From a virus, in the IMG/VR virus record IMGVR_UViG_3300023281_001110, positions 1-27,165 of that record: a stretch of 27,165 bases of DNA. One strand, given 5' to 3'. The stretch's first letter is position 1. Each line of letters begins with the position of its first letter. The position numbers and the translations under genes were made by a program. This document shows positions 9,073-27,165 of this stretch, piece after piece. The notes below the pieces were generated by a model. It ran no database searches, was not told the DNA's origin, and saw only the letters and a list, made by a program, of their open reading frames with translations.

Positions 9073-9087
9073 AATATCTCCTTAGTT

Positions 9088-9131
9088 AAAAAAACAGGTG
9101 GGCTACTCCCCAGTATTGTCTGCCCACCTGT
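9088..9131 (-). terminator. Intrinsic terminator after the decoration gene
   Basis: A perfect 10-bp GC-rich stem (ACAGGTGGGC / GCCCACCTGT) with an 18-nt loop is followed, in minus-strand reading, by a run of seven Ts. It lies between the decoration protein stop and the 870-aa fibre start. It would end or attenuate the scaffold-coat-decoration transcript, so fibre genes downstream would be expressed by read-through or an unseen promoter. Confidence 0.85.
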
Positions 9132-9148
9132 CCTTTTATTGTAGCTTA

Positions 9149-9539: not shown

Positions 9540-10391
9540 TTATTGCGAGATACAGTCAGCGTTAGCCAACACGTATGGTCTCGTTATTTTATATCCGTAC
9601 AAGTGCAAGCCTTTAACAGCATCACTGAAAGCATTCTCTTGTCGATAGCCTTCAACACTGTTTATTTGCTCTGCATATGTAACGCCATCCGAGTGACCAG
9701 CGATAACGTAGTTTCGACCTGCACCAGCAGAAGGAAGGTTGTTAGACACAACGATTCTCATACCAGCAGCAGCGCCGATGATTCCGTTTTCAAGGTCTTC
9801 ACGGTTAGCAGCAGTACCATAGCTCACAAAGCTCGCGTTTTTCTGTAACCATCCGTGATAAAACGGAGGGATTACACACCAACGACCAGCTCTGGGTACA
9901 TTGTTGTCATCTAGCTTCACAGCTAAGTCAACAAGATTTTCATACGCATCCACGTTTGCACCGTCACCAATAATCATGGCTCCTAGCGCATTACCTGTGT
10001 CGCCTTGTGCTTGCATAGCAGACAATACCGAACTGTCGGCTGCATCTCCAAGACCCCAAGCTGCGTCACGCATCGCTACGTCCATCAACGCACCATCATC
10101 TTTTACCTGACGAGCATCTACATCATCCACTTGGAATGCAAAGTACTTCGCCTGATCTATGGTAAGTACCTGTTGAGCATCGTCAAGAGTCTCAGGTGTA
10201 ATAGATGTGGTGTTTTTTACATAATCGTCGATTGTTATTCGACCGATTGATGTGATACGGACGGTATCTCCTGATTGAGAGATATCGCCTTCATAGTTCC
10301 GATTACATAGGTTCACTGCTACGTGAGCATCGTTAAGATTCTCTAATAGCGTTGCGGCCCATAAACTCGGAATAAATCTGTCTACAGACAT
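9540..10391 (-). CDS. Major capsid protein (HK97 fold, P22 gp5-like)
   Basis: 283-aa coat protein. The N-terminal signature FIPSLWAATLLENLNDAHVA, followed by CNRNYEGDISQSGDTVRIT and TPETLDDAQQVLTIDQAKYF, is characteristic of the P22-coat-like/HK97-fold capsid proteins of many tailed phages. Further recognisable regions are the central DAAWGLGDAADSSVLSAM helix and the GIIGAAAGMRIVVSNNLPSA strand with the C-terminal GLHLYGYKITRPYVL. About 300 residues with no N-terminal delta domain fits a separate scaffold, which is encoded 19 bp upstream. An AGGAGA ribosome binding site precedes the start. Transcription is most likely from the promoter ahead of the scaffold gene, with termination after the decoration gene. 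I see no capsid protease in the window. Confidence 0.85.
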   Translation of the reverse strand: MSVDRFIPSLWAATLLENLNDAHVAVNLCNRNYEGDISQSGDTVRITSIGRITIDDYVKNTTSITPETLDDAQQVLTIDQAKYFAFQVDDVDARQVKDDGALMDVAMRDAAWGLGDAADSSVLSAMQAQGDTGNALGAMIIGDGANVDAYENLVDLAVKLDDNNVPRAGRWCVIPPFYHGWLQKNASFVSYGTAANREDLENGIIGAAAGMRIVVSNNLPSAGAGRNYVIAGHSDGVTYAEQINSVEGYRQENAFSDAVKGLHLYGYKITRPYVLANADCISQ

Positions 10392-21161: not shown

Positions 21162-22466
21162 TTATCCAAACGTGACGTAATCTCTTTGTCGTAGTTGCGA
21201 TGCTGCTCTGTTTCGTTTTTTAGCTTTCATTACTGCTAATCCCGCTGCCATTACCGAGTCATCGTGGTATCCGACAGGATGGCCGTACTTTACAGCACCG
21301 CCAGCTAACACAACACCTTCAAATAATTCTAACTCTTTTTTAAGTATTTCGTCATTTTTGGGGAAATGAACTCGCTTATGTTCGATTTCTGCTGCGAGTG
21401 TGGAGACAAGTGTAGCCTTCGATTGGTTAGTGAACTTAAACGATGTAACAGCACAGCCTTCGCTGCGAAGGATGTCAGCCACAGGTTCACCGATACCAGT
21501 CCCATCAAGATGAATAGTTTGGCAGTTGTACTTTTTGTACAGATACGCAATGCGCGGCCCAAGTAATGTGTAGTCCAGTCCATTAAATCTATCCCTAGCT
21601 ACGATACTCATCGTCTTAATATCAATGACGTAGGCTACAGTGAAGTCTTCAATCTTTCCTAAGTCTAACCCCATAAGGTACTGAGAGTCAGTAGGTTCTT
21701 CCCAGTCTCCATCAAAGCAATCATCTAAGTTCCTAAAGACCTGCCCATCATCTTCCACCCATTCAGCAAGATACTGCTGTCGATACTGCGATTCTGTGAG
21801 GTCACGCTTGAATTCATCTAATGCTTCTTCGTCGATGTTCGGATGTGCGAGCGATGTCACTGACGCGGAGTAGTATCTAGGGTCATCTTCCTGCCCTACA
21901 TTCCAATAAGTACGAAAGTTTCCCTTCCCTCTAGCAATACCAATAGCTACTAACCTGCCATCAGAGTCAGCAAGAGCGGGCATAAAGTTAGCCCATGCTT
22001 CAGGATTGAGGTCGTGAGCCTCGTCTACAAAGGCCGCAGTGACCCTATCGCCCTGTAAGGCTGTCGGGTCATCAGCTGATTTAGCCTGTATTCGCGCACC
22101 ATTAGCCAGTTCAATAAGCTTTCTAGTCTTGTCATGGCTGGCATAATAGTCATGTAATGGCGCATGGTCACCAACAAAGAGGTTCCATACAGGCTCCCAG
22201 ACCTTCATAGTCAACTCATAGTTGGGTGCAATGACGTAGATGTACGGTGCGTGGGCCACTCCAAACTGTACATCTCTAGGCTTTAAGGCCTCTCGAACTA
22301 TCTCTGCTTTAATAGCGGTCGTCTTACCAGCCCTACGCCCACAGGCTAGGATGAGGCGTTTCTTGTCTGATTGCTCGTGGATATGCTCTCGTTGCCAATC
22401 CCAAGCATCATACGGATCACCTTCATTGATGAACTGCCAGATACTAGGAGGACTGTACGACTTCAA
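21162..22466 (-). CDS. terL: Terminase large subunit (ATPase/nuclease)
   Basis: 434-aa DNA-packaging motor. ATPase domain: Walker A GRRAGKTT at 43-50 and Walker B AAFVDEAHD at 144-152 with the catalytic Asp148-Glu149 pair. The AIGIARGKGN segment at 174-183 sits at the coupling-motif position. RNase H-like nuclease domain: Asp268 in GLDLGK, Asp321 in HLDGTGIG and Asp402-Asp403 in GYHDDSVMAAG provide the expected metal-binding acids. The length is typical for compact TerL proteins. It overlaps TerS by 23 bp and is followed by portal after three bases. It powers DNA translocation into the prohead and cuts the concatemer. All key residues are present, so it appears intact. Confidence 0.95.
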   Translation of the reverse strand: MKSYSPPSIWQFINEGDPYDAWDWQREHIHEQSDKKRLILACGRRAGKTTAIKAEIVREALKPRDVQFGVAHAPYIYVIAPNYELTMKVWEPVWNLFVGDHAPLHDYYASHDKTRKLIELANGARIQAKSADDPTALQGDRVTAAFVDEAHDLNPEAWANFMPALADSDGRLVAIGIARGKGNFRTYWNVGQEDDPRYYSASVTSLAHPNIDEEALDEFKRDLTESQYRQQYLAEWVEDDGQVFRNLDDCFDGDWEEPTDSQYLMGLDLGKIEDFTVAYVIDIKTMSIVARDRFNGLDYTLLGPRIAYLYKKYNCQTIHLDGTGIGEPVADILRSEGCAVTSFKFTNQSKATLVSTLAAEIEHKRVHFPKNDEILKKELELFEGVVLAGGAVKYGHPVGYHDDSVMAAGLAVMKAKKRNRAASQLRQRDYVTFG

Positions 22467-25139: not shown

Positions 25140-25147
25140 ACAGGAAG

Positions 25148-25203
25148 ATTTATGTATAAGAATATATATATACGTTTAGTATATATATATTTTATACATA
25201 AAT
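25148..25203. repeat. Long AT-rich hairpin/cruciform, 25-bp arms
   Basis: The left arm (25148-25173, 26 nt) and right arm (25179-25203, 25 nt) pair over their whole length around a 5-nt GTTTA loop. The only defect is one unpaired G at 25160. Each arm ends in an alternating AT tract. A perfect match of this length next to the loop is far beyond chance even in AT-rich DNA. No T-run follows, so it is not a terminator. A DNA-unwinding element or cruciform at an origin is the best guess. Confidence 0.9.
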
Positions 25204-25214
25204 CACGCGTGGTG

Positions 25215-25282: not shown

Positions 25283-25333
25283 GCCGAAATCCCTCTTCAG
25301 AAGAACTCTTAACATCTTTATCAGTCAAAACAA

Positions 25334-25391
25334 TATCTATCTTAGGACTTTCATCGCTTCGCTTTGAAGATGAAAGGTCCCAAGACAGATA
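25334..25391 (+). promoter_or_regulatory. Leader stem-loop 1 of a four-member family
   Basis: A 22/23-nt arm pair closes a 13-nt loop containing TTCG, with TCATC and GATGA next to the loop and only a few mismatches or bulges. It is followed by a 33-nt purine-rich leader with CGAAAACGGAGCA before the 50-aa gene. It is the most divergent loop of the family but keeps the CAT...ATG closure. No T-run follows, so it is not a terminator. Confidence 0.75.
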
Positions 25392-25424
25392 AATGGGCCG
25401 AAAACGAAAACGGAGCACAGCAAA

Positions 25425-25577
25425 ATGCCAAACAAAATAATCGAAATCGACTTAACACCGAATTGGGAAAACATCATAAGAGCTATGGAAATGTCTAAAG
25501 CAACTATGACTGCTGAACAGTGGGAAAAGAGTGCAGAAAAAAGAGTAATGGATGAATGTCTAAAGAGTAGAGGGTAA
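25425..25577 (+). CDS. Small protein, 50 aa, unknown function
   Basis: Small ORF (MPNKIIEIDLTPNWENIIRA start, ending ECLKSRG) with a CGGAG site ten bases before the ATG, placed directly after leader stem-loop 1. The peptide is helical and amphipathic (WENIIRAMEMSKATMTAEQW), with two Trp, five Met and one Cys. It is followed after four bases by the 158-aa gene, so the two make one two-gene cassette. I recognise no family. The coding case rests on the ribosome site, the leader and the tight spacing. Confidence 0.7.
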   Translation: MPNKIIEIDLTPNWENIIRAMEMSKATMTAEQWEKSAEKRVMDECLKSRG

Positions 25578-25581
25578 GCAA

Positions 25582-26058
25582 ATGACTAAGAATTTTGAAG
25601 ATATTTATTGGAAAAATCACCACCGAAAGCTGATACAGCTTCGAGCTGAAATGAAAAATCACCGACTTGGTGACGAATGGACTAACAGTCCATTTGAAGA
25701 TGAACTAAAAACCACCGAAGAAGTTATTGCCTATAGGCAAGAACTGAAAGAAGAAAGATTGATTGGCGATTTCGGCAGTCTTTATGAAGTACCTAGACAT
25801 GATTGTAATCATTGCAAAGGATATCTATTCCCAAATGGATATTTTATGAGTGTTATATCTTTCCATTGTTCTTATGTTAGTGCTTATGGAAATGAAGATC
25901 AGCCATATGAAATAGCTATAAGAGTAGATTCTACTGGTGATTTTGTTCATCTGGATGGTTATGACTACCGTCATGATGATGTTCTTGGTTACCTCCCCTT
26001 AGAAGATGTCGCTGACATCTTTTACCAAACGAGAGATTTAGCTACACACACATCTTAA
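25582..26058 (+). CDS. Unknown protein, 158 aa
   Basis: Unrecognised soluble 158-aa protein. The first ~65 residues are charged and helical (DIYWKNHHRKLIQLRAEMKN, TTEEVIAYRQELKEERLIGD). The C-terminal part contains a CNHC pair (DCNHCKGYLFPNGYF), aromatic strands (SVISFHCSYVSAYG) and an acidic tail (VHLDGYDYRHDDVLGYLPLE). It has a GAGGG site overlapping the end of the 50-aa gene and is the second gene of the first cassette. It is the largest protein of the small-gene array. The CxxC could bind metal, but no other function is visible. Confidence 0.8.
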   Translation: MTKNFEDIYWKNHHRKLIQLRAEMKNHRLGDEWTNSPFEDELKTTEEVIAYRQELKEERLIGDFGSLYEVPRHDCNHCKGYLFPNGYFMSVISFHCSYVSAYGNEDQPYEIAIRVDSTGDFVHLDGYDYRHDDVLGYLPLEDVADIFYQTRDLATHTS

Positions 26059-26077
26059 TCAAAATAAATCATAAGAA

Positions 26078-26132
26078 CTCTCTAAATCTTTTTTCCATCC
26101 CTTCGGTCTGTAAATGAAAAAAAGATAGAGAG
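26078..26132 (+). promoter_or_regulatory. Leader stem-loop 2 of the family
   Basis: Arms 26078-26098 and 26114-26132 form about 18 pairs with one C-A mismatch and a two-A bulge, closing the 15-nt loop CCCTTCGGTCTGTAA. The gene-free interval also has a conserved upstream part (TCAAAATAAATCAT) and a 28-nt downstream leader with CGAAAACGGAAACGGAGCA before the 63-aa gene. Confidence 0.85.
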
Positions 26133-26160
26133 AACAACGAAAACGGAAACGGAGCAAAAC

Positions 26161-26352
26161 ATGACAGTTTACGAAAAGGTTTTAGCAATGCAAGAAGATT
26201 ACAACGAAATGATTGCCAACGAAGAAACTAATTCGATTAGAGCTTATCTAACACTTCATAACTGTGATGAAATTTGCAGATATGAACTCTGCCCAAAATA
26301 CTACGGTTGGTTTTCTGGTGATTGGGTTTTAAACCTAATCCTTAATTCTTAA
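26161..26352 (+). CDS. Small acidic Cys-containing protein, 63 aa
   Basis: Small protein (MTVYEKVLAMQEDYNEMIAN start) preceded by stem-loop 2 and a CGGAG site. The N-terminal half is an acidic helix. The second half carries three cysteines (NCDEICRYELC) followed by an aromatic tail (KYYGWFSGDWVLNLIL). Cysteine spacing allows a small metal site, but with only three Cys and one His nearby this is uncertain. It is a single-gene cassette, with a conserved interval before and after it. I recognise no family. Confidence 0.75.
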   Translation: MTVYEKVLAMQEDYNEMIANEETNSIRAYLTLHNCDEICRYELCPKYYGWFSGDWVLNLILNS

Positions 26353-26374
26353 TCAAAATAATCATTAAAGAAAA

Positions 26375-26425
26375 CTCTCTCCTTTTTCCCATCCCTTCGG
26401 TCTGTAGATGGAAAAAAGAATAGAG
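26375..26425 (+). promoter_or_regulatory. Leader stem-loop 3 of the family
   Basis: Arms 26375-26392 and 26108-matching 26408-26425 pair around the 15-nt loop CCCTTCGGTCTGTAG, with three mismatches. The loop differs from copy 2 at one base while the stem differs at several, so pairing and loop are the conserved elements. The downstream leader is shorter (19 nt) and reads GCGAAAGGAAAAGC before the ATG. Confidence 0.85.
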
Positions 26426-26444
26426 CAAAAGCGAAAGGAAAAGC

Positions 26445-26573
26445 ATGGAGCAAGAAATTGACGGTTTAAACGAAATCTTCCACTGTGAGGAAAGTGGAAA
26501 GTGTGATTGCTGCGAAGCAATTTTCTTACCAACCGATTGGACTGAATCAGTCCTAGCTGAAGAAAGGATGTAA
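26445..26573 (+). CDS. Micro-protein, 42 aa, Cys-rich
   Basis: Short ORF (MEQEIDGLNEIFHCEESGKC start, ending LAEERM). It is acidic, with four cysteines and a histidine clustered as HCEESGKCDCC, a plausible tiny zinc or redox site. It follows stem-loop 3 with a GAAAGGA site, and the next gene starts two bases after its stop, so the pair forms a two-gene cassette. No family is recognised. Confidence 0.7.
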   Translation: MEQEIDGLNEIFHCEESGKCDCCEAIFLPTDWTESVLAEERM

Positions 26574-26575
26574 AG

Positions 26576-26812
26576 ATGGATTTTGTAAGAGAAGCAAGTC
26601 AGTTCTTTCTAGAGAGAAAACTCCCTAGATACTGGAACCAATGGGAAGACTTTGATTTGGAGTTAGAAAGATGGGTTCAAGAGCATAGCTCTTGCAACTG
26701 GGATTGCCGAAATTACGAAGCAATCTTTGAAGATATTCAAGAGTTAGCTGAGTACCTTGAAAAAGTGGCTTCAGTAGGAATTGAAAATCTGAAAGACGTG
26801 GACACACTCTAA
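26576..26812 (+). CDS. Small acidic protein, 78 aa
   Basis: Unrecognised 78-aa acidic, helical protein (MDFVREASQFFLERKLPRYW start), with four Trp and a CNWDC pair mid-protein, then a leucine-bearing acidic helix (IFEDIQELAEYLEKVAS). It starts two bases after the 42-aa gene, with AAAGGA in the end of that gene as its ribosome site. It is the second gene of the third cassette. Small acidic proteins of phage early regions often inhibit host enzymes or mimic DNA, but there is no specific evidence here. Confidence 0.75.
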   Translation: MDFVREASQFFLERKLPRYWNQWEDFDLELERWVQEHSSCNWDCRNYEAIFEDIQELAEYLEKVASVGIENLKDVDTL

Positions 26813-26830
26813 ATCAATCAAAAAGAATAT

Positions 26831-26886
26831 CTTATCAATCTCCCTCATCCCTACGGTCTGAGAATGAGGAAGATTGAAAGATAAAG
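26831..26886 (+). promoter_or_regulatory. Leader stem-loop 4 of the family
   Basis: Arms 26831-26848 and 26864-26886 pair with one mismatch and a four-base bulge around the 15-nt loop CCCTACGGTCTGAGA. The UUCG of the other loops is UACG here, still a UNCG motif, while the stem sequence is largely different. The leader that follows (17 nt) keeps ACGGAGCA before the next ATG. Confidence 0.85.
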
Positions 26887-26903
26887 TGAAACGGAGCAAC
26901 GAA

Positions 26904-27056
26904 ATGAACAGCAACACAATCAAATTCAACGGCGAGTTCTGGCAAAAGATGGAAAGAGATTGCAGTACTGTTTGGAAGAAAGGAGACTGGATCTGTGTCT
27001 GGGGTCAGGCAGATATAGACAAAGAAGAGAGAAAAAACTGGATGGCAAATCGCTAA
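26904..27056 (+). CDS. Small Trp-rich protein, 50 aa
   Basis: Short ORF starting at the ATG at 26904, with CGGAGCAACGAA as ribosome site, directly after stem-loop 4. An upstream in-frame TTG at 26874 lies inside the hairpin and is rejected as start. The peptide (MNSNTIKFNGEFWQKMERDC start) has five Trp and two Cys (ERDCSTVWKKGDWICVW), with a basic/acidic C-tail. It is likely a compact beta-hairpin-like domain. No family is recognised. Confidence 0.7.
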   Translation: MNSNTIKFNGEFWQKMERDCSTVWKKGDWICVWGQADIDKEERKNWMANR

Positions 27057-27079
27057 ACAAAAATTGAAAGGATTACAAA

Positions 27080-27165
27080 ATGGCAATGTCAAGAAAGCAC
27101 TATGAGGCTTTTGCTAAAGCAATCGGGTCAGCTAAAGCAATTAGTAACGGTTATGTAACCGATCC
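27080..27165 (+). CDS. Partial small protein, MSRKHYEAFAKAI-type, cut by the window edge
   Basis: Starts at ATG 27080 with a GAAAGGA site and runs off the right end after 28 complete codons (MAMSRKHYEAFAKAIGSAKA...). The M-S-R-K-H-Y/F-x-A-x-A-x-x-I start is one I recognise from a widespread class of small phage proteins of unknown function. It follows the 50-aa gene by 23 bases with no new stem-loop, so it is probably the second gene of the fourth cassette. Confidence 0.7.
   Translation, partial: MAMSRKHYEAFAKAIGSAKAISNGYVTD

Follow-up and report, generated by a model that had tools for sequence, protein, structure and literature searches.

Hairpins heading small-gene cassettes in the early operon of an uncultured marine tailed phage as candidate RNA punctuation

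How phages swap their tiny early genes without breaking the expression of the operon that holds them is an open question, and it bears on a rightward early operon of an uncultured marine tailed phage, in which each small-gene cassette is headed by a single hairpin. The window, by which we mean the whole stretch of 27,165 nucleotides analysed, is part of a virus record of 27,724 bases (G000). The record has a scaffold gap of 10 Ns at position 27165 (L165 3167-3176), where the window stops, so that the gene following the 50 aa ORF downstream of the fourth hairpin is incomplete. The late genes, including those for TerL (21162-22466) and the major capsid protein (9540-10391), read leftward, and the rightward small genes begin at about 25.3 kb. 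No phage record with similar DNA was recovered among the 50,697 searched. Based on the M23 peptidase and lysozyme-like domains encoded by the phage the host is likely to be bacterial; as the capsid protein has no relative above 49% identity among genomes, the top score belonging to an Ilumatobacteraceae MAG, the host call is made no finer than that.

Between the late arm, which reads leftward, and the early arm, which reads rightward, lies a near-perfect, A/T-rich palindrome of 58 nt (25146-25205; GATTTATGTATAA...TTATACATAAATC; about -27 kcal/mol), which is possibly an origin or a divergent control site. On the minus strand, a terminator-type hairpin followed by a T-run (9081-9140; CAGGTGGGC...GCCCACCTG) lies 3' of the capsid gene, and its loop ACTGGGGAGTAG is kept in G004, one of the TerL/MCP relatives of the phage.

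Layout of the hairpin-headed cassettes

The first-pass annotation had described four hairpins here, and we recover them to within a few bases, all on the plus strand like the genes that they head. SL1 (25334-25391) has a stem of about 20 bp, interrupted by two 1x1 mismatches and a bulge, and is closed by the loop GCTTCGCTTTGAA; as read from the sequence, it is preceded by a TCAAAACAA element (25325-25333) and followed by the leader GAAAACGGAGCA, which includes a ribosome-binding site (25406-25417). It heads cassette A, comprising ORFs of 50 aa (25425-25577) and 158 aa (25582-26058). Directly 3' of the stop codon of the latter is a TCAAAATAA element (26059-26067), and then SL2 (26077-26133; 18 bp, loop CCCTTCGGTCTGTAA), the purine-rich leader GAAAACGGAAACGGAGC (26139-26155) and the 63 aa ORF of cassette B (26161-26352). 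A second TCAAAATAA element (26353-26361) precedes SL3 (26373-26427; 15 bp, SL2-type loop) and cassette C, with ORFs of 42 aa (26445-26573) and 78 aa (26576-26812). Finally, a TCAAAAAGAA element (26818-26827) is followed by SL4 (26829-26887; about 20 bp, loop CCCTACGGTCTGAGA), the leader GAAACGGAGCAACGAA (26889-26904) and the start codon of a 50 aa ORF (MNSNTIKF; 26905-27057), the first gene of cassette D. Each of the four is thus bounded on its 5' side by a control region or stop codon and on its 3' side by the ribosome-binding site of the following ORF. The rule of one hairpin per cassette, as originally noted, is true throughout the window and continues past it.

Some details of the earlier description needed revision. 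The TCAAAA segment ahead of the hairpins is indeed shared, and by all four copies rather than three. The leader GAAAACGGAGCA, ascribed to every copy, is exact at SL1 and present as a close variant at SL2 and SL4, but is absent at SL3, which has GCGAAAGGAAAAGCATG. The near-identical loop attributed to three copies exists in SL2, SL3 and SL4 (CCCT(T/A)CGGTCTG); SL1 had been included in that group wrongly, since its loop is of 13 nt and keeps only the UUCG. We also considered the ATG in the right arm as the start of a leader peptide, and rejected this as the resulting frames are of unrelated lengths (MKKR*, MRKIER* and longer in SL1 and SL3) and, by reading, have no preceding ribosome-binding site.

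Cysteine pairs (CNHC, CDEICRYELC, CDCC, CNWDC) occur in most of the otherwise unrelated cassette proteins encoded between 25425 and 26812. These are possibly small zinc-binding proteins, and no confident family match was obtained for the small proteins of this region.

Pairing, covariation and loop conservation

The loop 15-mer CATCCCTTCGGTCTG has five matches with up to three mismatches as against 0.45 expected, a number reached by no shuffle, and SL1-SL4 account for four of the five; a three-mismatch search of both strands found no complement of the loop elsewhere in the window. The single-sequence folding energies of the A/U-rich stems are only moderately unusual, with z values of -4.2, -3.1, -1.7 and -2.6 for SL1 to SL4 and of about 0 for the entire gap around SL3. 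Hairpins of at least 14 bp are found in 8 of the 11 intergenic gaps of this phage and in 14 of 26 in its relatives, which amounts to no separation, and gaps with an energy z below -2.5 (6 of 11 versus 7 of 26) separate the two weakly; hence, energy alone was not used as an argument.

Covariation among the copies provides stronger evidence. In an alignment of SL1-SL4 of the window with SL2 of the related contig G003, 82% of the cells are paired as against 71% in shuffled versions, 9 of the 18 pairs have changed on both sides as against 3.3, and the covariation score is 0.394 as against 0.196, none of which was reached by any of 500 shuffles; slid registers score worse. The relatedness of the aligned sequences is a caveat on these values, with the counted-pair measure being robust in the tool's own trials, and the covariation among paralogs could come partly from duplication followed by segmental replacement. 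Together with covariation between orthologs at a fifth hairpin discussed below, it bears out the earlier suggestion that structure is under selection, the stems being neither identical nor devoid of covariation, and an RNA structure for these hairpins is well supported by such comparison of sequences. No Rfam family matched the window above its gathering threshold. A looser descriptor of loop and stem was dropped because it returned many GC-rich false matches.

The same changes bear on a reading in which the hairpins are promoter-overlapping inverted repeats comparable to the Extended Start-Associated Sequences (ESAS) of cluster K mycobacteriophages, bound as DNA by a regulator, so that transcription would start separately at every cassette. 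Their position matches that of the cluster K ESAS, which contain putative SigA-like promoters (PMC11373665, PMC3203893), the TCAAAA element precedes all of SL1-SL4 and there is one TGGACA-18-AAGAAT match just before SL4. Yet the copies have different stems, with compensatory changes, which argues against a common operator, and only 2 promoter-like sites were found where 5.1 are expected by chance under a sigma70-like consensus that may not be that of the host; we accordingly regard this reading as improbable.

Slot-wise gene exchange between hairpins in related phages

An exact scan of viral contigs with the loop 15-mer returned 52 stretches, nearly all of them due to chance, and only three contigs (L038, L039 and L052, corresponding to G001-G003) have the exact loop within a hairpin. 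With a mutual identity of about 99.8%, these are counted as one lineage. The first-pass annotation had proposed a search of this and related genomes with a covariance model built from the copies; such a model detects exactly SL1-SL4 in the genome of the window and in each of G001-G003, at E below 1e-11; additional hairpins of this early region also match weakly, as do hairpins of a third lineage, represented by contigs 3300024518_006391 (L192) and 3300024518_002762 (L188), which may be one phage or two. Copies thus occur in relatives, and the two further lineages, comprising five contigs, have hairpins at equivalent junctions. Neither blastn nor the covariance model found copies in the TerL/MCP relatives G004-G013; among the distant ones, G004-G006 were checked and differ in their early region, G004 also in the orientation of its arms.

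The order of SL1-SL4 is constant, while the intervening genes differ between relatives. In the window the order is SL1-[50+158]-SL2-[63]-SL3-[42+78]-SL4-[50, MAM...], and in G003 it is SL1-[102]-SL2-[50+158]-SL3-[42, remnant of 78]-SL4-[MAM...]. Thus, the 50 aa and 158 aa genes of cassette A follow SL2 rather than SL1 in G003, the 63 aa gene is missing from its slot, the 78 aa gene has suffered an internal deletion, and the 50 aa gene after SL4 is an ATG-to-ATG insertion in G000, placed between the leader and the MAM-type gene. In L192 the 158 aa gene follows a different hairpin, and an ORF of 49 aa similar, by eye, to the 42 aa one follows the second hairpin of that contig. It follows from the two orders that the 105 nt comprising SL2 and its flanks, which are 96% identical, lie between different genes on both sides. 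The homology between the window and G001/G003 breaks at 25418, 26044, 26131/26148, 26348, 26776 and 26907, in every case in a linker or within about 12 codons of one, the break at 25418 being 7 nt 5' of the start codon and that at 26044 in the stop-codon tail. The exchange of genes slot by slot, with breakpoints in the linkers, is thereby shown among the window, G001-G003 and contig 3300024518_006391, in agreement with the cassette swapping envisaged in the first-pass annotation.

Between the window phage and G003 the hairpins themselves differ by 1 substitution in 229 nt, with flanks 91-98% identical: SL1 (58/58), SL3 (55/55) and SL4 (59/59) are identical, the 612 nt upstream of SL1 being only 91% identical, and the sole change turns UUCG to UACG in the SL2 loop of G003. 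The blocks of SL2 and SL3 are about 80% identical to each other.

The series extends beyond the window. In the early operon of G003, whose gene calls were made partly by eye, a hairpin is present at 8 of 8 cassette junctions up to 5.2 kb (SL1-SL8), while none lies in the gaps of 4 and 26 nt between genes of one cassette. SL5 (L169 2720-2757 in G003; 27299-27336 in G000, outside the window) precedes a 178 aa gene; the two versions are separated by 12 stem substitutions, and yet 15 of 17 pairs are kept, with 3 double changes, a retention of pairing with a probability of about 0.001 under random substitution. SL7 (L169 3966-4018), which lies ahead of a DUF932-like gene of 356 aa, has had its loop replaced and displays one double change. 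In SL6 (L169 3421-3477) and SL8 (L169 5124-5182), which have 23-26 pairs, the lower stems are kept between G003 and L188 and the upper stems have been swapped for unrelated sequence that again pairs. The two L192 hairpins, one ahead of the 50+158 aa genes and the other ahead of the gene resembling the 42 aa one, are unrelated to SL1-SL4 and near-identical to each other, at around -22 kcal/mol and a z of about -6.5.

Three further observations were made in these early regions. SL6 of L188 heads a 91 aa DUF7249 gene (L188 463-738) and that of G003 is followed by a non-coding remnant, which is another case of slot gain or loss. The right arm of SL7 overlaps, by eye, a promoter-like TTGCGC-17-TATAGT (L169 3966-4030; TTGCAC in L188) ahead of the DUF932-like gene. 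In G003, a C/A-rich non-coding stretch of 489 nt (L169 10960-11448) contains repeated CCGAC-like words.

The exchange at the linkers might suggest that the hairpins have no RNA role at all and are kept merely as homology or as selfish cassette-shuffling elements, in the manner of PeSLs or attC sites, a notion to which the breakpoints in the linkers lend some weight. However, pairing survives the replacement of the sequence, which homology alone would not need, and neither the GTTRRRY integron core nor RYYYAAC occurs within 12 nt of SL1-SL4, for which reason we rejected integron attC sites; recombination as the sole function is, in our view, doubtful to about the same degree as the ESAS-like reading. 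Even less probable is that these are terminators or attenuators of an unusual kind without a U-tract. While they are located 3' of stop codons and both SL7 (-31 kcal/mol) and SL8 (about -41 to -45 kcal/mol) fold very stably, the earlier remark that no T-run follows the hairpins is correct, a terminator scan lists none of SL1-SL4, in line with their original classification as non-terminators, and no promoter-like sites follow these four to serve the next cassette.

A further proposal is that an RNA-binding regulator, encoded by the phage or its host, recognizes the CAT-C-CCUNCGGUCUG-ATG loop at each cassette, for boxB/put-like antitermination or coordinated translational control. The loop is nearly invariant across SL2-SL4 while the stems differ, the one change among the 229 hairpin nucleotides preserves a UNCG motif, and cUUCGg is present in SL5 of both lineages. 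Against this, the loop of SL1 differs, and SL6-SL8 as well as both L192 hairpins have unrelated loops at equivalent junctions. Such a regulator is therefore unlikely, albeit less so than the three preceding proposals.

Candidate role and known counterparts

In light of the above, we favor, at roughly even chances, the proposal that the hairpins are intercistronic RNA elements of an early polycistronic mRNA, namely T7-like processing or stabilization sites of the RNase III type, with the linkers serving also as homology for exchange. They would act as RNA rather than DNA, transcribed between the stop codon of one cassette and the next ribosome-binding site, with the conserved property probably being a long imperfect mRNA duplex of about 15-26 bp and not its sequence. 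Host RNase III, an enzyme nearly universal in bacteria, or a similar nuclease would cut or stall at this duplex, and the early message would thereby be resolved into transcripts the size of a cassette, structured at their ends and with the ribosome-binding site left open; RNase III itself is the presumed reader. Because the linkers (stop-codon tail, hairpin and leader) resemble one another, they would in addition provide shared homology between slots for the gain, loss and movement of small genes. A nuclease that reads a duplex would account for the wholesale replacement of sequence with pairing kept, and it is the maintenance of pairing while both the stem sequence and the neighboring genes change that makes the hairpins look like RNA punctuation. 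Some points speak against the processing model. The lineages number only three, the folding energy of SL3 is by itself unremarkable, and in SL2-SL4 conservation is higher in the loop than in the stem, something that RNase III does not require. A recent duplication or a loop-binding protein would explain this loop family.

The RNase III sites of T7 are imperfect intercistronic duplexes upstream of the next ribosome-binding site and without a U-tract. There are 10 of them, six of which share their intergenic region with a promoter (PMC9135205). Like these, the present elements are intercistronic duplexes that lie in an early operon without covering the next ribosome-binding site, and they extend over some two helical turns (15-26 pairs, mostly about 20, SL3 being short at 15). 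They differ in the SL2-SL4 loop family and in the tie of the linkers to gene exchange, and cleavage is here only a prediction. The T7 sites may well be the closest counterparts in mechanism.

In layout, the closest are ESAS and other start-associated inverted repeats. Start-Associated Sequences and their extended form (SAS/ESAS) are repeats of clade-specific sequence found, with a conserved leader, just upstream of the start codons of some non-structural genes in cluster K mycobacteriophages, where they form an inverted repeat, and in cluster EF Microbacterium phages; the role of ESAS and similar repeats is described as unclear, with one paper tying them to promoters (PMC3203893, PMC11373665, PMC7302621). 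The hairpins likewise are inverted repeats directly 5' of the start codons of several small genes. However, the cluster K ESAS have a common arm sequence and a putative SigA-like promoter, whereas here the arms differ by compensatory changes and no promoter is evident. Inverted repeats of 17-18 bp also occur shortly 5' of start codons in cluster O mycobacteriophages and cluster EG Microbacterium phages, those of cluster EG being 14-22 bp upstream and kept although the region differs (PMC7302621). These are similarly placed, but follow one fixed palindromic consensus, unlike the variable stems described here.

In evolutionary effect, the closest parallel is probably provided by the promoter-early stem-loops (PeSLs) of T4-type phages, which combine an early promoter with a terminator-type stem-loop and are linkers in hypervariable small-gene regions, tied to modular gene shuffling. 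The association with such shuffling is common to both, whereas the present hairpins have no U-tract and no excess of promoters. The PeSLs of T4-type phages are cited in PMC4503421.

At the same junctions, the three lineages, the only independent ones known, have hairpins that are unrelated and yet paired to an equal degree, and so separate structure from sequence, which points to a function at the level of RNA. On a more tentative note, the operon might be regarded as a row of hairpin-bounded slots, in which the structural mark is fixed, its duplex alone suffices for any host to read it, its sequence is replaceable with pairing kept, and orphan small genes are inserted, deleted and exchanged from the start codon to the stop region. 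If this is true, the processing of mRNA would be coupled to gene turnover, and the slots would predict newly acquired genes for host takeover or counter-defence. As marks of the boundaries of exchangeable slots, the hairpins also offer a way of locating early genes with fast turnover in uncultured phages.
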